From: Salipiger bermudensis
GTDB taxonomy: Bacteria; Pseudomonadota; Alphaproteobacteria; Rhodobacterales; Rhodobacteraceae
Direction of reading: 5' to 3'
DNA: 64,000 nucleotides
Assembly: GCF_019801965.1 (NCBI RefSeq)
Contig: NZ_JAHVIA010000004.1
Span: 1-64,000 of the forward strand
Shown: positions 120-37,465 of the stretch, in pieces
Numbering within the stretch: position 1 is the stretch's first letter
How the letters are laid out: every line of letters begins with the position of its first letter
Program-made: the position numbers and the translations under genes
The notes under the pieces: generated by a model
Databases searched by the model: none
Told to the model about the DNA's origin: nothing
The model's input: only the letters and a program-made list of their open reading frames with translations

Positions 120-477
120 GGAGTTTCAACAAAACAAGGCCGGTGGTGGCTTCGCGGCATCGTAATGTGGTGACGGTCTATAGTCTATTGAAAATGATGA
201 GGACCCGTTCTGGGATGTCGACATGATAGCCGATCGCCGGGCCCCACCAGATTGCTCGGCGACTGCGTTGCCGAGGCGTTTCATCACCGGCCCCCGGAAA
301 GTGTCGTCGAGAGGGGCTTTCGCCACTCACAGATCGCGCGCAACGCGGATAGGACGAGTGGTCTCAGGCATGTAGATTTCCACGATCTTTGAAAATTTCA
401 TTCCATGGCCCGGAAAGCAACAGCACTTGGACGATTATTGAAATCCATTATGGTGCTGGCTTGAGGACCTCGCAATG
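120..477. other. Stretch with no supported gene between the IS end and the integrase
   Basis: A 66-codon minus-strand frame at 126-326 is open, but its product has no recognisable motif and no good ribosome binding site. I see no tRNA gene, terminator or clear attachment repeat here. It may be the eroded flank of the integrated element whose integrase follows. Confidence 0.4.
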
Positions 478-3093: not shown

Positions 3094-4107
<1,014 letters not shown>

Positions 4108-6219
4108 TCAGAGCGTGCAGGACACGCAGCCCTCGACCTCGGTGCCTTCCAGCGCGGTCTGGCGCAGGCGCACGTAGTAGATCGTCTTGATGCCCTTCTT
4201 CCAGGCGAGGATCTGGGCGCGGTTGATGTCGCGCGTGGTGGCCTCGGCGGGGAAGAACAGGGTCAGCGACAGGCCCTGGTCGACATGCTCGGTGGCAGCG
4301 GCATAGGTCTCGATCAGCGCCTCGGGGCCGATCTCGTAGGCGTCGCGGTAATACTCGAGATTGTCGTTGGTCATGAAGGCGGCCGGGTAGTAGACGCGGC
4401 CGATCTTGCCTTCCTTGCGGATCTCGATCTTCGACACGATCGGGTGGATCGAGGAGGTCGAGTTGTTGATGTAGCTGATCGAGCCGGTGGGTGGCACCGC
4501 CTGGAGGTTGCGGTTGTAGAGCCCGTGCTCCATGACGTCGGCCTTCAGCGCCGCCCAGTCGGCGCGCGAGGGCAGGGCGATGCCGTCGAAGAGCTCGGCC
4601 ACGCGGTCGCTCTCGGGCAGCCAGTCGCGCTCGGTGTACTTGTCGAAGAACACGCCCGAGGCATAGTCCGACGCCGCGAAGCCCTTGAAGGTCGCGCCGC
4701 GTTCCCTGGCCAGCGCGCAGGAGGCGCGGATGGCGTGATAGGCCACGGTGGCGAAGTAGACGGAGGTGAACTCGACCCCCTCGGGGCTGCCGTAATGGAT
4801 GCGCTCGCGGGCGAGGAAGCCGTGCAGGTTCATCTGGCCGAGGCCGATGGCGTGGCTCTCGTCATTGCCCTTGCGGATCGACGGCACCGCGTCGATCGCC
4901 GACATCTCCGACACCGCGGTCAGTGCCCGGATCGCTGCTTCGACGGTGGCGCCAAGGTCGCGGCCATCCATGGTCTTGGCGATGTTAAGCGAGCCGAGGT
5001 TGCACGAGATGTCGGTGCCCATGCGGGCATAGCTCAGATCCTCGTTGTAGTCCGAGGCCTCGTTGACCTGCAGGATCTCGGAGCACAGGTTCGACATGGT
5101 GATGCGCCCGTCGATCGGGTTCATCCGGTTCACCGTGTCCTCGAACATGATGTAGGGATAGCCGCTTTCGAACTGGATCTCGGCCAGCGTCTGGAAGAAC
5201 GAGCGGGCGTTGATCTTGGTCTTGCGGATGCGCTTGTCCTCGACCATCTCGTCGTATTTCTCGCTGACCGAGATCTCCGAGAACGGCACGCCGTAGATCT
5301 TCTCCACGTCATGCGGCGAGAACAGGTACATCGGCTCGTTGCGCTTGGCGAGTTCGAAGGTGACGTCGGGGATCACCACGCCGAGCGACAGCGTCTTGAT
5401 GCGGATCTTCTCGTCGGCATTCTCGCGCTTGGTGTCGAGGAAGCGCAGGATGTCGGGGTGGTGGGCGTTGAGATAGACCGCCCCCGCGCCCTGACGCGCA
5501 CCGAGCTGGTTGGCGTAGGAGAAGCTGTCTTCGAGCAGCTTCATGATCGGGATGACGCCGGAGGACTGGTTCTCGATGCCCTTGATCGGCGCGCCATGCT
5601 CGCGGATGTTGGTCAGCATCAGGGCGACGCCGCCGCCGCGCTTGCTGAGCTGCAGCGCCGAGTTGATGCCGCGGCCGATGCTCTCCATGTTGTCCTCAAG
5701 CCGCAGCAGGAAGCAGGAGATCAGCTCGCCGCGGCTTTTCTTGCCGGCGTTGAGGAAGGTCGGCGTGGCGGGCTGGAAGCGGCCCGAGAGGATCTCTTCC
5801 ATGAACGACATGGCGAGATCCTGATCGCCGCGCGCCAGCGCCAGCGAGACCATCACCACGCGGTCTTCGTAGCGCTCGAGGAAGCGTTTCCCGTCGCGGG
5901 TCTTGAGCGTGTAGGAGGTGTAGTACTTGAAGGCGCCGAGGAAGGTCGGGAAGCGGAACTTCTTCTTGAAGGCGGCATCCCAGATGCGCTGCAGGAACTC
6001 GCGCGGATAGGCCTCGAGCACCTCGGCCTCGTAATAGCCCTCCTCGACGAGGTAATCGAGCTTCTCGTCGAGCGAGTGGAAGAACACGGTGTTCTGGTTG
6101 ACGTGCTGCAGGAAATACTGCCGCGCGGCCATGCGGTCGGCCTCGAAGCGGATGTGGCCGTCCTCGTCGTAGAGGTTCAGCATCGCATTCAGCGCGTGGT
6201 AGTCGAGCGTCTCGCTCAT
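4108..6219 (-). CDS. nrdE: Class Ib ribonucleotide reductase, catalytic subunit NrdE
   Basis: This is the large catalytic subunit, which reduces ribonucleoside diphosphates using NrdH as electron donor. The product of about 703 residues has the NLCSEI active-site motif (Asn, Cys, Glu), the conserved [12 protein letters not shown] and [12 protein letters not shown] segments, and the redox-active C-terminal tail CVSCTL. A longer frame extends upstream, but the start at 6219 is preferred. There the ATG overlaps the nrdI stop as ATGA, which implies translational coupling. The N-terminus [14 protein letters not shown] matches the family start. The protein lacks the ATP-cone found in class Ia NrdA, as expected for class Ib. 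Confidence 0.97.
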
Positions 6220-6629
6220 GCGGTCAAGCATTCGGTCCCCCAGAAGGCGTGCAGCCCGTCTCTGACGCGGGCAATGTCGGTGAGCGTGCCGGCAAGCTCG
6301 AACTTGTAGAGCAGCGGCACGGAGCATTTCTTGGCGATGACATCGGCGGCGAGGCCGTAGGTGGCCCCGAAATTGCGGTTGCCACCGCCGATGACGCCGC
6401 GCAGGCGGCGGCGGTTCTCGGGATCGTTCAGGAAGCGGATGACCTGCTTGGGCACCGCGCCGCGGCCTTCACCGTCGGCATAGGTGGGGCAGATCAGCAC
6501 GTAGTCCTCCGGCAGCTCTGGCAGCGCCGCCTTGGGCGAGACGGGGATGCGGCTGGCCGCCATCCCGAGCCCGTCCACGAAGCGCGCGGTGTTGCCGCTG
6601 GCCGAGGAGAAGTAGACGATCCCCGGCAT
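6216..6629 (-). CDS. nrdI: Flavodoxin-like NrdI, activator of the NrdF cofactor
   Basis: NrdI is a small flavoprotein that supplies the oxidant for assembling the dimanganese-tyrosyl radical of NrdF. The 137-residue product has the FMN phosphate-binding loop near the N-terminus ([12 protein letters not shown]), the aromatic/acidic loop [11 protein letters not shown] and the [11 protein letters not shown] segment typical of NrdI. It begins 3 bp after the nrdH stop and overlaps nrdE by ATGA, so the operon is tightly coupled. Its presence supports a manganese form of the enzyme. Confidence 0.96.
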
Positions 6630-6632
6630 TGC

Positions 6633-6857
6633 TCAGGAGGCGAGCGCGCCGATCATGTCGGGGCGGAAGCCCGACCAGTGGTCTTCGCCGGCGATGACCA
6701 CGGGCGCCTGGCGGTAGCCGAGCTCGGTCACGCGGGCCATCGCCTCGGCATCCTCGGTCAGGTCTACCACGTCATAGGGCAGGCCGCGGGCATCGAGGGC
6801 GCGGGTGGTGGCGGTGCACTGCACGCAGGCGGGCTTGGAGTAGACGATGATCGACAT
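6633..6857 (-). CDS. nrdH: Glutaredoxin-like protein NrdH
   Basis: The 74-residue thioredoxin-fold protein is the dedicated reductant of NrdE. It carries the redox motif CVQC at residues 11-14 (KPACVQCTATTRAL) and the cis-proline region QAPVV with the C-terminal segment WSGFRPDMI characteristic of NrdH. The frame is open far upstream, but the start at 6857 is fixed by the family N-terminus (MSIIVYSKP) and by AGAGGA about 10 bases upstream. It is the first gene of the operon. Its leader of about 115 bases separates it from the cobalamin riboswitch. Confidence 0.95.
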   Translation of the reverse strand: MSIIVYSKPACVQCTATTRALDARGLPYDVVDLTEDAEAMARVTELGYRQAPVVIAGEDHWSGFRPDMIGALAS

Positions 6858-6973
6858 GGGCGGCGTCCTCTTTGTGGCTGGCGGGAGGCGACGCGACTTG
6901 GGCGGGCCAGCAGCGCCGACCCGGTTCCCTGACACGCCCCGAACCCTCCGTTCGTGGTCAAATCCTGTTGCTT

Positions 6974-7143
6974 CCGGCAGGTCTCCTGACTCGCGGCGGA
7001 TCCCGCGGGACCGGCCTTCCCGGGGTGGCAGCCCCAGTGGCGTGATCGGTCTCGCGCGCCGCTTACAGTTGCGGGGGCAGTGCCGGCTTTTCACCGGCTT
7101 CCCTCTTGCCGGCGGATGATTCCGCCGAGCACCTGAAGCACCT
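6974..7143 (-). promoter_or_regulatory. Cobalamin (B12) riboswitch upstream of nrdHIEF
   Basis: Read on the minus strand the element runs from GGTGCTTCAGGTGCTCGG (from 7142 down) through GAAGCCGGTGAAAAGCCGGC, the box CCCCCGCAACTGTAAGCGG and the B12-box region CACTGGGGCTGCCACCCCGG, to the terminal arm GTCAGGAGACCTGCC near 6977. These are all the conserved blocks of the AdoCbl riboswitch, in order and spacing. It lies in the leader of nrdH, so adenosylcobalamin should lower nrdHIEF expression. That arrangement is known where a B12-dependent class II reductase (NrdJ) also exists. No nrdJ is in this window. Confidence 0.95.
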
Positions 7144-7604
7144 ATATCTAGATCATGTGGCCTGGAGTGCGTCAATATGCAGTTGTGCAACGGTTCGGGG
7201 CACAAGAGCTTGTGTGCCCTTGCGGGGGCTGGGATTCGGGTGATTTGGGGTCCGTTTTTTTGCTCCGGACGTGGAGATCGGGTGCCTGATTTCTGGGCGG
7301 AGGGCCGGGTCTCATGTGCTTGGCGAGTCGCGGCATTCGATCTCCGCTCTGGCGCGGGGCAAAGGCCAGAGGCCGCCGCGCCATTGCCTGCCGGCTCCGA
7401 CGGGCTGGCGATTTGGTGAAACTGGGGCCGCAGTGGTGAGGTCCTTCGGACTTGGCCAAGATAAACCGAGAGGCTCGCAGGGAAGATCGCCCCCCCCTCG
7501 GGCAGGCGATGGCGCGGCGGCGCCCCCATTCTACGACCAAGGCCACATTGCCCGCATCCGCCGCACCCTGTAGATTCGCGCCATCCGCTGTGAAGGATGC
7601 CGAC
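7144..7604. other. Intergenic region between the riboswitch promoter and the first AraC regulator
   Basis: This region holds the nrd promoter, a short inverted repeat (about 7198-7219, GGGCACAAG/CTTGTGTGCCC), a run of seven T at about 7254-7260, and one copy of the intergenic repeat family (see 7341-7523). No gene is supported. Confidence 0.5.
7341..7523 (+). repeat. Intergenic repeat family, copy 1
   Basis: This copy matches those at 54035-54223 and 54321-54509 and, inverted, at 12075-12270. Shared blocks are AAAGGCC-GAGGCCGCCGCG, a GGTCC/GGACC-type inverted pair, GATTTGGTGA, AGGTCCTTCGGACTTGGCC and GATAAACCGAG. It is the most diverged of the plus-oriented copies. No open frame is conserved among copies. 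Confidence 0.7.
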
Positions 7605-32940: not shown

Positions 32941-33324
32941 TTACTGTGGGCAGTTTTCCGGGCAGACCTCGCGCAGCGCACGGCGCAGGCGCTTGGTATC
33001 GATCGGCTTGTGGCAGCACTTGGCACTGCCATATTTCTCGGCGATGTCGGCATCCTGCACGTGGCCCGAGTGGAACACCAGCCCGACGCCCATCTCGTTG
33101 AGCTTGTCGGCTAGCGGGAAGACCTCGCCGTCGCGCAGGCGGACATCGAGCACCGCCATATCGGGGCGCACGTCGTCCAAAGCCTTCAGACCCTTGGAAA
33201 AACTGTCGAACGGGCCGATGACATTGTAGCCAAACTCCTCCAGCAGGAGCTGCAGATCGAGCGCGACGATGTACTCGTCCTCGCACAGCAGCACCGTGGG
33301 TTTGGAGCCATCGCCATCAGTCAT
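32941..33324 (-). CDS. Single-domain response regulator of the LOV/HWE module
   Basis: The 127-residue receiver has the acidic pocket (CEDEYIVALD), phospho-acceptor Asp60 (AVLDVRLRDGE), Ser/Thr switch (VFHSGH) and Lys (HKPID). It has no output domain. The start at 33324 overlaps the kinase stop by 8 bases, so it is translationally tied to the HWE kinase upstream and is its probable phosphate acceptor. Receivers of this LOV/HWE-linked kind often act as phosphate sinks or on partner proteins. An alternative start at 33342 would add six residues. Confidence 0.85.
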   Translation of the reverse strand: MTDGDGSKPTVLLCEDEYIVALDLQLLLEEFGYNVIGPFDSFSKGLKALDDVRPDMAVLDVRLRDGEVFPLADKLNEMGVGLVFHSGHVQDADIAEKYGSAKCCHKPIDTKRLRRALREVCPENCPQ

Positions 33325-36300
33325 TCCGCAGTAAGGGCCCATAGGTCAAGGTCATCCTTCGTTCGTGTTCGTCGAACTCCACCGCGACGGTCCCGTTGAG
33401 CTGGACGGCGGAGAGTTGCACAAGCGTCGAGCCGAAGCCGGACGCACCGTTGTCCGGCTCAACTTGCGCAGTGTGGATTTCGTTCCACGTTAAAACAACG
33501 CCACCGTCGGTTTTTCGTTCCCAAAGCACTTCGAGACGGCCGTCCGCCGGTCCGAGCACGCCGTATTTGGCCGCGTTGGTGGCCCATTCATGCAGCAGCA
33601 GCGACAGGGCGGTGAGGTCCTGATCCTCGACCTCGACCACCGGACCCTCGACGCGGTAGCCCGCCTGGCCGGCATAGGGCTCGAGCGAGGCGCGCACGGT
33701 ATCCTCGAGGGTCAGCGAGCGGCTGCCGGGGCGGCGCTGGGTGAGATCGTGTGAGCGCGCCAGCGCGTTCACGCGGGTCTGGATGCCGTCGACCAGGTCC
33801 TCGACCGAGTCGGTCGAGCGTCCGGCGATGCGCACCATGCCCGAGATGATCGAGAACATGTTCTTCACCCGGTGGTTCATCTCGCGCAGCATCATCTCGC
33901 GGATGTCGCGCGCCTCCTGCTCGGCGGTGATGTCGAACAGCACGCCCAGAACCCGCGCCGCGCGCTTGCTGTGGACCCGCCGGCCGACCACCCGCACCGA
34001 GCGGAATTTCGGCCCCGTGCCGGCGCGCTTGAAGGTCAGGTCGATGGCGTCGCCTTCGCGGGTCAGGCCGGTGATCGCCGCCTTCACCTCGGCTTCGTCG
34101 TCGGGATGCACGGTGTCGAGCAGGCTCTCGAGCGACAGCGCGTTGGCATCGACGCCGAGCACGCCGCAGCCGGTCTCGTCGAGCCGCATGCTGCTCAGGA
34201 TCGGGTCGAACTCCCAGACCCCGAGCGACGACACGTCGAGCGCCAGCCGCAGCCGCTCGCCCTCGTGCTTCAGCGCCTCCTCGAGACGCAGCGCGTCGGT
34301 CAGCTCGGTGAAGACCAGCGTGGCGCCGTCGATCTCGCCGTCACGGGTGCGGTAGGGGGTGATGACCAGCGACCAGGTGCGCTCTTCCTCCTCGCGATCG
34401 CTGACCCGCATGTGGCGCACTTCGCCGTCCTGCACGGTCTGGGCGATGGCGTCGAGCACATCGTCATTGCGGCGCAGCTTGCTGGTGACCTCGGTCAGCG
34501 GGCGGCCGCGGTCGGTGTTGCGGAACGGGTAGATGCCCTGGATCGCGTCGGTGAAATTGCGGATCATCAGGCTCGCATCGACCACCAGCAGCGGCAGCGC
34601 GGTGGAGGCGAAGAAGTTGCTGAGATCGGCATTGGCAATCGACAGCTCGTCGACCTTGCCCTTGAGCTCGTCATTGACCGTCGAGAGCTCCTCGTTGGTC
34701 GATTGCAGCTCCTCGTTCATCGACATCATTTCTTCGTTGGAGCTCTTCAGCTCCTCATTCGCCGTCTCGAGCTCCTCGACGGTGGTGTGCAGGCGCACGC
34801 GCGTGCTACGCAGCTCGTCCTCGAGGCTCTGGACGTGGCTGTCGATGCTGTCGAGATCGTCGAGATCGGCATCGTCGAGCGGCTCGAAGCTCTCGCGCTC
34901 GCGGAACACCACGAGGATTGTGCCGTCCTTGAGCGGCTCGGCGATGAGGTCGAAGGCCTGCCGGCCGAATTCCGAGCGCGCGGTGAGATCGCGCGAGATC
35001 GTGCGGCGCTTGGTCTCGCTGACCTGCCGGATCGCCGCCGAGAGCGACTCGCGGGTGCCGGGGCGGGCCACCGAGGGCGCAAAGCGGTTGGTCTCGTCGC
35101 CGGGCGAGAAATCAAGATACCTGCCGAGCCGTCCGGTCGAGGCGAGGATCTCGCCCGCCGAGGTCACCCGCAGCGTCGCCGGGGCGTAGGCCGACAGAAT
35201 GCGGTCGGTGGCGCCGCCATCGGTCCATTCGCGCCGCGGCGAGGGCTCGCTGGGGCGGGCGCTGGCATCGCGGTTGGCGGTGTTTGCGGTGTCCTGCCCG
35301 CGCAGGTGCAGCGGGTATTCCGGGCGGCTGTCGTTGCGGCGGAAGATGCGGGCGCTCTGGTCGAGCGCCTTGAAGACATGATCATGCCGGCCAACGGTCT
35401 CGGAAGGCCCGAGAAACAGCGTGCCGCCGGGCTTGATGGCGTAGTGAAAGATCGGCAGGGCCGAGTTCTGCAGCGTGTCGCCGAAATAGATCAGCAGGTT
35501 GCGGCAGGACAGCAGGTCAATGTTCGAGAATGGCGGGTCGCGCACCACGCTGTGCACCGAGAAGCGGATCATGTCGCGGATCTTCGAGGAGATCTGGAAC
35601 CGCCCGTCGCGCGCGATGGTGTAGCGGTCGCGCATGGTCTCGGGGATGTCGACCAGCGCCGCCTGCGGGTAGGAGGCGTCGCGGGCGATGCGCAGCATCT
35701 GCTCGTCGATATCGGTGGCGAAGATCTGCACCCGCACCGAGCGCCGCAGCTGCCGGATTTCCTCGGCGAACATCATCGCCATGGAATAGGCTTCCTCGCC
35801 GCTCGAACAGCCCGGCACCCAGACCCGGATCTCGTCTTCATTGCCGGCATTGGCGACCAGCGGCTTGATCACGGTCTCGCGCAGCAGCTCGAAATGCTCG
35901 GTGTCGCGGAAGAAGCGGGTGACGTTGATCAGCAGCTCGCGGAAGAGGATCTCGCACTCGCTCGGGTCGGCGCGGATGTATTGCAGGTAGGCATTGGCAT
36001 CCGACAGGTCGAGCACCTGGATACGGCGCTGCACCCGGCGGATGAGGGTGGATTTCTTGTAGCCCGAGAAATCGTGCCCGACGAAATTGCGCACCACGGT
36101 GAAGATGCCCTCGAGGTTCTCCTCGACGGTGACCGCAAGGGTCTCGCTCTTGGTTTCGCGCAGGGCGTGGGCGTAGAACTGGTGGATCGCCGGGACGATC
36201 TCGGAGGGGCGGCGGACGAAATCGACCAGCCCGGTGGCCTGGGCCGAGGTCGGCATGCCGTCGTAGCGCGCGGTGCGCGGATCCTGCACGATGCAGAGCC

Positions 36301-36781
36301 CGCCATGCTCCTTGATCGCCCGCAGCCCGGCGCTGCCATCGGCGCCGGTCCCCGACAGGATCACGCAGGCGCCGAAGCGGCCCTGGTCCAGCGCCAGGCT
36401 CTCGAAGAAATCGTCGATCGGTCGGCGCAGCCCGCGCGGCTGGGCAAACTCGGTGAGGTTCAGCACGCCGTCGGTGATCGACAGGCCGAAGCCCGGCGGG
36501 ATGATGTAGACATGGCCGGCCTCGACGGTCTCGCCGCCAGAGGCCTGGGTCACCGACAGCGAGGTGTGCCGGCCCAGAAGCTCGGCCAGCAGGCTCTCGT
36601 GATTGGGATCGAGATGCTGGATCACCACGTAGGAGAGATTGCTGTCGGGCTTCGCCCCGGCCAGCATCTCCCGGATCGCCTCGAGCCCGCCCGCCGACGC
36701 ACCGACGCCGATGATGCAGAGCCGCTCGCGGTCGTGCGTGATGTTGTCCTCAGCGGACTTGTTGGTCTTGTCGTCTTTCAT
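33317..36781 (-). CDS. CheB-CheR-PAS-HWE histidine kinase fusion
   Basis: The 1154-residue protein fuses, in order, a CheB methylesterase (residues about 25-205, [39 protein letters not shown]), a CheR methyltransferase (about 210-485, [34 protein letters not shown]), a PAS-like region (about 540-640), a long coiled coil rich in EELxxxNEEL heptads (about 655-725), two PAS domains (about 735-990) and an HWE kinase (about 1000-1150, REMNHRVKN with the phospho-His, [11 protein letters not shown]). The catalytic Ser, His and Asp of CheB look intact. The gene lies between a LOV photoreceptor and a receiver, all in one operon. An ATG at 36781 follows AGGCGG; a TTG at 36796 is also possible. Its substrate is probably not a chemoreceptor, as no che genes are nearby. 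Confidence 0.9.
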
Positions 36782-36801
36782 CGTCCGCCTGATCAAGGGC
36801 C

Positions 36802-37350
36802 CTAGCGCTGGCTGTCGTCGAAGGTCAGTTTTGCCATCAGAGCGATCGAGTCCGCAAGCAGACCTGCCGAGCCCATCATGGCGAGACCGAATTCCCGTCC
36901 GATCTGACCGACATCCGAAAGCGCATCCTGCAATTTCTCGTCATTGAGCGAGATCTGCGAGCGCTTGAGGGCGGTGGTCATGTCGAACTGCGACGCGAGG
37001 ATAAATTGGGGCTGACCCCTGGTGTCTTTTAACCGTGACATAAAAACGTAGTTATGAAACGCAGACCCGTCCTTGCGATAATTGAGGATCGGGAAGCGCC
37101 CGCTGTCTTCGCCATTGCCATGCACGAAATCATGCAGCGCCATGCGCGCGGTCTCGGTGGTGTCGGAGCCCTGCAGGAAGCGGCAGTTATGGCCCACCAC
37201 CTCCTCCTCCGCGTAGCCGGTCAGCTCGCAGAAGGCGTCGTTCACCACGAGGAGCGGTGCGTCGTCTTCGACGGCGGACAGGGCAAGCGCGACGCCCGAC
37301 TTCTTGATGTAGTCGCGTAGCGCCGGGGGGAGGTCGAGCTGTGAGATCAT
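36802..37350 (-). CDS. Short LOV-domain blue-light photoreceptor
   Basis: The 182-residue protein is one LOV (PAS) domain with helical extensions. The flavin-adduct motif GHNCRFLQG is intact with Cys56, and the second LOV signature NYRKDGSAFHNYVFMSRLKD follows at about residues 90-110. The last 60 residues form a helix that may be a dimer or signalling helix (MTTALKRSQISLNDEKLQ). The start at 37350 fits the family N-terminus. It lies 20 bp before the CheB-CheR-HWE kinase gene, so the two are one transcript and the LOV protein is the likely light input to the kinase. It lacks a kinase or HTH of its own. Confidence 0.9.
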   Translation of the reverse strand: MISQLDLPPALRDYIKKSGVALALSAVEDDAPLLVVNDAFCELTGYAEEEVVGHNCRFLQGSDTTETARMALHDFVHGNGEDSGRFPILNYRKDGSAFHNYVFMSRLKDTRGQPQFILASQFDMTTALKRSQISLNDEKLQDALSDVGQIGREFGLAMMGSAGLLADSIALMAKLTFDDSQR

Positions 37351-37465
37351 GGCCGCATGATGTGGACGAGGGGACCGATCTTCAAGAAGATGACGCGGAG
37401 TTCCGTCGAGGCAAGGGAAATAATTGTGCCGCGTCGTTTCTTCTCTCGTCTTGCGGGTCCGGCCC

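Follow-up and report, generated by a model that had tools for sequence, protein, structure and literature searches.

What does a stand-alone LOV photoreceptor signal to, when the gene beside it encodes a histidine kinase that also carries the adaptation enzymes CheB and CheR? This question is raised by three consecutive genes in a 64,000-nucleotide stretch of Salipiger bermudensis DNA (contig NZ_JAHVIA010000004.1, positions 1 to 64,000; the whole stretch is called the window below), which encode a short LOV protein, a CheB-CheR kinase and a single-domain receiver. The linkage of these genes is conserved in two gene arrangements, which bears out the proposal of the first-pass annotation that the trio is one signalling unit. 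We read it as a split two-component system that responds to blue light, feeds into stress control and carries its own methylation enzymes, and give this reading a probability of about one half.

Layout and conservation of the gene unit

The three genes lie as follows.
36802..37350, minus strand: short LOV photoreceptor gene (182 aa; ATG at 37350; Cys56 codon at 37183-37185)
33317..36781, minus strand: CheB-CheR-coil-PAS-PAS-HWE histidine kinase gene (1154 aa; ATG at 36781)
32941..33324, minus strand: single-domain receiver gene (127 aa; Asp60; FHSGH motif)

The single operon with tight spacing or overlap that had been proposed is apparent from the 20 nucleotides between the LOV stop and the kinase start and from the receiver start (ATG 33324), which overlaps the kinase stop by 8 nucleotides (ATGACTGA). 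Alternative starts, a TTG 15 nucleotides upstream of ATG 36781 and an ATG at 33342, would lengthen the kinase to 1159 aa and the receiver to 133 aa. A Pfam scan found PAS in the LOV protein, CheB_methylest, CheR_N, CheR, PAS_10 and HWE_HK in the kinase, and Response_reg in the receiver. The first-pass description of a stand-alone LOV protein with intact Cys56 (within the motif NCRFLQ) and of a receiver without output domain was accurate; the domain order and length of the fusion also stood, with the correction that it has two PAS domains, not one.

The same gene order recurs in other genomes, as the earlier annotation had suggested should be looked for, and poor conservation of the neighbourhood was not seen. 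When plasmids were searched with the kinase by tblastn, 1242 records matched, the top 13 of them over 93-98% of the query with 47-64% identity; the loci of 12 of them (not H8) were studied. All ten annotated records hold a PAS (LOV) gene, the kinase and the receiver in this order, under varying names (in the Neorhizobium record the outer two genes are both called 'histidine kinase') and with exceptions in two, since the last two genes of Sagittula P11 form one coding sequence and the kinase of Rhizobium CC-CFT758 is broken. Reading frames give the same order in the two unannotated records (L044 and L045; L denotes loci and G genomes). Genome contigs were searched with a LOV alignment, nine of whose 12 members had been collected through the kinase, a selection bias; among the best 80 of 138 LOV relatives the kinase lies directly downstream in 80/80, at 46-94% identity, and the receiver behind it in 67. 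The same order in all 80 loci indicates that the arrangement is not due to chance. Two of the 13 receiver-less loci are cut by contig ends; the others are L064 and ten of Methylobacterium/Methylorubrum (L078, L082, L083, L088, L098, L107, L113, L118, L122 and L123). Searched with a receiver profile, these eleven intact loci gave no match behind the kinase and, in three of them, only weak matches upstream of the LOV gene.

Together with the window, the 12 plasmid and 80 genome loci make up 93 loci of four alphaproteobacterial orders (Sphingomonadales 36, Rhodobacterales 28, Hyphomicrobiales 27, Acetobacterales 2), and the unit is found in many soil, leaf and sea bacteria. Taking the start codon nearest the preceding stop, the LOV and kinase genes overlap or lie at most 50 nucleotides apart in 88 of the 92 loci measured, and the kinase and receiver genes in 80/80.

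A fairer test of linkage used the window LOV protein alone as the query against 198 family genomes; the four best LOVs (G000, G088, G192 and G107) have the kinase. A second arrangement was found in six Roseobacteraceae genomes (G047, G006, G091, G051, G050 and G171; loci L194-L199), where the LOV gene stands head-to-head with a CheB-CheR-PAS-PAS-HWE kinase gene followed by a receiver gene. These divergent kinases are full-length CheB-CheR-HWE proteins with 34-38% identity to that of the window, and the LOV and kinase residues checked in the trio are conserved in all six units. The LOV-kinase-receiver set is thus present in at least ten of the 198 genomes, counted over the loci of the 30 genomes with the best LOVs, for most of which 1.5 kb of flank was covered.

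Across 78 loci the evolutionary distances of the three proteins correlate (LOV-kinase 0.947, LOV-receiver 0.822, kinase-receiver 0.878), and none of 1000 within-order permutations reaches these values; such agreement of the trees is expected because the genes are linked. The kinase tree was built without L047 (broken), L038 (frameshift), L090 and L105 (contig ends), and the LOV and receiver trees without L047 and L038. We considered a mobile cassette, given the 12 plasmid records with flanks varying by genus, but the kinase tree needs only 4 order-label changes (minimum 3), and frequent transfer is therefore not claimed. No fourth conserved gene was seen in the flanks, the best recurring family occurring in 15 loci of 6 genera.

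Photoreceptor, kinase and receiver

The seven LOV residues for flavin mononucleotide (FMN) binding and adduct formation (NCRxxQ, two Asn and Gln) are invariant in 93/93 loci. A Pfam scan found no effector domain in the LOV protein, and its best NCBIfam matches were LOV kinase and YtvA models, far under the cut-off. The structure predicted from 57 of the available LOV sequences (predicted local distance difference test, pLDDT, 85.5; predicted template modelling score, pTM, 0.82) has helices at 133-153 and 161-181 after the core, and together with structural alignment it delimits one further feature.
Residues about 127-181, minus strand: C-terminal two-helix extension of the LOV protein

In the structural alignment seven entries of RsLOV, the short LOV of Rhodobacter sphaeroides, rank first (Z 19.1-19.9; 163-169 residues aligned, up to model residue 179; 25-27% identity), and the remaining 43 rows shown align over 102-145 residues (Z 17.9-18.9); RsLOV leads by little in Z, and its longer alignment with this predicted model is the stronger point. 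Foldseek gives RsLOV the top TM-scores on the query (up to 0.76), and the best phmmer match is 7ob0, an RsLOV variant. The LOV model thus matches RsLOV best, helical tail included.

The kinase comprises the following parts.
36185..36712, minus strand: CheB methylesterase domain (residues 24-199; Ser29/His56/Asp148)
35354..35926, minus strand: CheR methyltransferase domain (residues 286-476; Arg292, Asp357, Tyr432)
34661..34780, minus strand: coil with heptad-spaced Glu pairs (residues 668-707), proposed as the kinase's own methylation region
34298..34624, minus strand: PAS domain 1 (residues 720-828; Pfam PAS_10 and model)
33917..34240, minus strand: PAS domain 2 (residues about 848-955; little conserved; FixL-type matches and model)
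33647..33883, minus strand: HWE dimerisation/phosphoacceptor region (His970; the ATP-binding part then runs to residue about 1147)

The CheB and CheR motifs, which had been called intact, are kept wherever the frame is readable: CheB Ser29 and His56 in 91/91 loci and Asp148 in 92/92, CheR Arg292 and Asp357 in 92/92 and Tyr432 in 93/93. We take their catalytic roles to be those of the Salmonella CheB and CheR residues. His970 is kept in all 91 loci that hold the HWE region, and the HWE core also has its N box. These counts leave aside the broken L047 and the out-of-frame first CheB part of L063 for CheB, and L090 and L105, cut before His970, for HWE. Some kinase genes appear damaged, perhaps by sequencing slips: L038 near 8183 (one-base loss, Sagittula P11 plasmid), L047 at 3965-7370 (several breaks, Rhizobium CC-CFT758 plasmid) and L063 at 843-1150 (CheB start out of frame, Alloyangia mangrovi). 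The long coding sequence of Sagittula sp. P11 (L038) had been considered as a kinase-receiver fusion that would prove partnership; alignment with L036 shows that one base is missing from a run of G within the kinase gene, which identifies it as a frameshift or sequencing slip and not a designed fusion.

PAS domain 2 is the least conserved folded domain of the trio kinases (mean entropy 2.22), and residues 526-635 are PAS-like by predicted secondary structure. The kinase model, built from 41 of the available sequences, served only to assign secondary structure and domain limits (pTM 0.34; coil pLDDT about 44-68).

Receiver residues Asp60, Ser86 and Lys106 are kept in 80/80 trio loci. The best solved relative of the window receiver is 2msw, which we take to be EL_LovR. 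The trio receiver lacks a FATGUY-type motif, as we understand the form of that motif, and has FHSGH in the window, with F84 and S86 invariant in 80/80; the receivers of the six divergent units, by contrast, have the FATGY-like F-[ALC]-[TS]-G-Y. The family name of FAT GUY single-domain receivers is used in PMC5898713, which describes the Pak-SdrG-PhyT-PhyR relay, where such a receiver feeds the general stress response; MrrA and LovR are likewise single-domain receivers that feed or drain this response (PMC5964349).

PhyR was searched for in the genomes of 41 of the 80 loci and found in 40 (it is missing in that of L080); the 17 tested outside Rhodobacterales come without a background rate and say little. 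Within Rhodobacterales it is present above the cut-off in 24/24 trio genomes versus 87/198 family genomes (counted as 12 genera, Fisher 1e-4), and it occurs in 10/10 of the family genomes that have the LOV-kinase set (hypergeometric 2e-4). General stress control is therefore the likeliest output of the unit. The host genome has one PhyR above the cut-off (C12:4791-5558), and another HWE kinase lies about 2 kb away at C12:7595.

A path can be proposed whose dynamic steps are all inferred from what was established directly, namely the gene unit, its conservation, the predicted fold and the co-occurrence. The RsLOV-type photoreceptor would bind FMN and form a cysteine adduct under blue light, and would then act in trans on the co-expressed HWE kinase to change its activity, the probable means being that the two-helix tail of the photoreceptor is exposed or released. 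The kinase would autophosphorylate on His970 and, as its family and operon suggest, pass the phosphate to the receiver, which like SdrG, MrrA or LovR may shuttle or drain phosphate in the PhyR-NepR-EcfG response, a role that the co-occurrence supports. The CheB and CheR domains, to judge from their conservation, are probably active enzymes whose methyl addition and removal would serve adaptation, with targets most likely other than classical chemoreceptors. A putative coupling of light to protein methylation, the idea of the first-pass annotation, is plausible.

Several observations weigh against this reading. The ten Methylobacterium/Methylorubrum loci and L064 keep the LOV and kinase genes, and an adjacent receiver is therefore not essential. 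The PhyR co-occurrence is an association among related, non-independent genomes, and could apply to any HWE kinase or LOV gene. An EcfG-like promoter stands upstream of the LOV gene in 1/93 loci (0.25 expected), not in the window, so the unit is not visibly under the EcfG sigma factor. In the LOV model the final helix is predicted with low confidence (residues 161-182 average a pLDDT below 60), and the E-value order of Foldseek lists Brucella LOV-PAS chains ahead of RsLOV, at a root-mean-square deviation of about 18. Finally, related short LOVs occur with no kinase beside them in G058 and G015 of the family sample and in G448 of a class sample (loci L138, L201 and L202). These three are RsLOV-like short LOVs with the same core residues as the trio LOV.

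The Glu-rich coil and the role of CheB and CheR

The trio kinase is one branch of a wider, common class of CheB-CheR kinases, having CheB, CheR, a Glu-rich heptad coil, PAS and kinase parts in one chain. In a class sample of 385 genomes, 30, the host included, match it at E 1e-120 or better. No LOV gene was found near the 31 non-trio loci (29 from this sample, with L048 and L049) within their flanks of about 1.5 kb or less (4 kb for L048 and L049), and a receiver lies directly behind the kinase in ten of them. Several of these kinases are without the PAS2 stretch and others have a different kinase core. For L048 and L049, no stand-alone sensor was seen upstream by eye among the listed open reading frames, no domain scan being made; an N-terminal fused sensor in L165 was rejected, the extra reading frame having no Pfam domain and looking non-coding.

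The coil carries Glu pairs at 669/670, 676/677, 683/684, 690/691 and 697/698, followed by Asp-Glu at 704/705. It is the most conserved 40-residue stretch of 41 trio kinases (mean entropy 0.065, with 0.404 for the next separate stretch), and 34 of its 40 positions are invariant across the 93 loci. The coil was also examined in 28 of the 31 LOV-less loci (without the broken or truncated L170, L176 and L192), where it is only the third most conserved stretch. All 28 keep the checked CheB and CheR residues and Ser687, Glu690, Glu691, Asn696, Glu697, Glu698 and Asn703, while the hydrophobic positions 685 and 692 and the C-termini vary. Counted on unaligned sequences (the coil alignment had cut out extra heptads), each holds a run of 4 to 8 [ED]E pairs at heptad spacing, with a small residue three after the second Glu in every pair of 26 of them and in all but one pair of the other two. 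The full chemoreceptor methylation consensus [ASTG][ASTG]xx[EQ][EQ]xx[ASTG][ASTG] was not found in the window kinase and is present somewhere in 4/93 trio kinases; the half site [EQ][EQ]xx[ASTG][ASTG] occurs three times in the window kinase (669, 676 and 690), always within the coil. In a set of 7051 reading frames, which is biased towards CheB-CheR kinase loci, 124 hold two NEE seven residues apart; CheR is present in 122 of these, and the remaining two are truncated fragments of such kinases. Conversely, this repeat is held by 120 of the 135 frames with CheB and CheR, the rest being 13 cut before the coil and two with a variant repeat.

The absence of a chemoreceptor nearby, noted earlier, was correct for the window; the host genome has five methyl-accepting chemotaxis proteins (MCPs) elsewhere, with five HWE_HK matches and two CheR proteins, one of them the trio kinase. 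In 79 trio genomes (L100 was excluded, being from the same assembly as L099) MCPs are present in 75 and none was seen in four drafts (L056, L071, L073 and L099). In these four the checked CheB, CheR and HWE residues and the coil are intact, with one coil change, Leu706Ser in L073. Novosphingobium guangzhouense SA925 holds two copies of the unit on different contigs (L099 and L100), and no MCP was found in its genome.

In view of the conserved coil with its chemoreceptor-like Glu pairs and of the intact residues in draft genomes where no MCP was seen, we propose the coil as the CheB/CheR substrate. The kinase would be its own methyl-accepting protein, with CheR and CheB methylating and demethylating the Glu pairs of residues 668-707, and the blue-light signal from LOV would be adapted within one polypeptide; we hold this tentatively, the odds being against it.

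A purely structural role of the coil is possible, and only slightly less probable than self-methylation is that CheB and CheR are scaffolds or binding-only regulators, with phosphate alone signalling and the coil kept as a dimer or signalling helix. Helix 648-726 continues straight into the PAS-PAS-kinase part, as signalling helices do, in a model of low confidence there, and the coil falls short of the full consensus; LovK/LovR, moreover, is not known to require methylation. Against a scaffold speak the catalytic residues, kept in all 28 LOV-less fusions and every readable trio locus, and the LOV-less coils, in which several Glu, Asn and Ser positions are invariant while the hydrophobic 685 and 692 vary.

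It is unlikely that light instead acts on chemotaxis, with LOV-controlled CheB and CheR resetting adaptation on the ordinary chemoreceptors of the host. MCPs are present in 75 of the 79 trio genomes and in the window's own genome, and RsLOV is reported to affect chemotaxis genes (PMC4335406). Yet the four draft genomes keep the enzyme residues where no MCP was seen, the window's genome has another CheR, and the kinase has no Response_reg match in the Pfam scan, so that its CheB is without the receiver that couples CheB to CheA. As a chemoreceptor adaptation system the locus thus lacks an MCP in the window and a receiver on CheB; CheA and CheW were not searched for. The least probable alternative is mere co-transcription, in which the kinase senses another signal through its PAS domains and LOV acts on another target: LOV-less kinases are common, 10/31 read with a receiver behind, and related short LOVs occur without a kinase, but the genes stay together in 80 loci with one arrangement and in six with the other, and PAS2 is the least conserved folded domain.

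Around the unit, a promoter scan found no promoter-like site on the minus strand, and a terminator scan one weak site at 32897-32885, 44 nucleotides past the receiver, not above the number in shuffled sequence. A CCCTTGCCTC-like element upstream of the LOV start is common to the window (37400-37450) and to L050, L051 and L052, and is a possible unit promoter. A 977-codon open frame antisense to the kinase (33872-36805, plus strand) is regarded as an artefact, frequent in GC-rich coding DNA.

Relation to known systems and significance

Judged from its sequence, the trio is a variant of the known LOV-HWE two-component systems. With LovK/LovR of Caulobacter, Brucella LOV-HK, EL346 and RT-HK it shares blue-light LOV input and an HWE core, and with LovKR also the single-domain receiver in the operon. 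In those kinases LOV and kinase form one polypeptide, whereas the trio LOV is separate (in the window and 80/80 loci) and the trio kinase carries CheB, CheR and the Glu-rich coil. LOV-HWE kinases have been linked to the general stress response (PMC5964349, PMC12148442). The Pak-SdrG-PhyT-PhyR relay of Sphingomonas melonis likewise has kinases that phosphorylate a single-domain receiver feeding PhyR; unlike for the trio, no LOV protein or CheB/CheR is described in the accessible portion of PMC5898713. The CheB-CheR kinases L048, L049 and L165 share CheB, CheR, the coil, an HWE-type core and a receiver behind, but have no LOV gene beside them.

On the photoreceptor side, RsLOV is a short LOV like that of the trio; the trio LOV gene has a kinase gene fixed beside it, whereas the accessible portion of PMC9758184 (2022) reports no partner for RsLOV, stating that no binding partners had been identified for RsLOV, DsLOV and PpSB LOVs. 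It cites the dissociation of RsLOV subunits upon illumination and presents PmlR2 as the first partner known for a bacterial short LOV. PmSB-LOV of Pseudomonas mendocina thus acts on a protein encoded adjacent, as proposed for the trio, with the difference that PmlR2 is a MerR-type repressor and the candidate effector of the trio is a kinase (PMC9758184). A short LOV is also listed in Methylobacterium populi (PMC4844311). Our literature search, with supplements and most subscription journals outside its coverage, found no description of the trio, of a LOV gene paired with a CheB-CheR kinase or of CheB-CheR self-methylation, in keeping with the first-pass statement that the trio had not been described as a unit; the variant itself is apparently undescribed.

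Short LOVs serve as models of photochemistry, and the unit supplies a concrete, testable candidate partner for the RsLOV type in culturable genera. The common CheB-CheR fusion proteins, for which no assigned role was seen, also gain a tractable test case: blue-light input, kinase, receiver and proposed methylation region lie in one 4.4-kb operon, so that signal, phosphate and methyl group can be traced together. If the proposed self-methylation is true, a chemoreceptor-style memory would be built into a two-component kinase, and this would extend to a large class of CheB-CheR fusion proteins.

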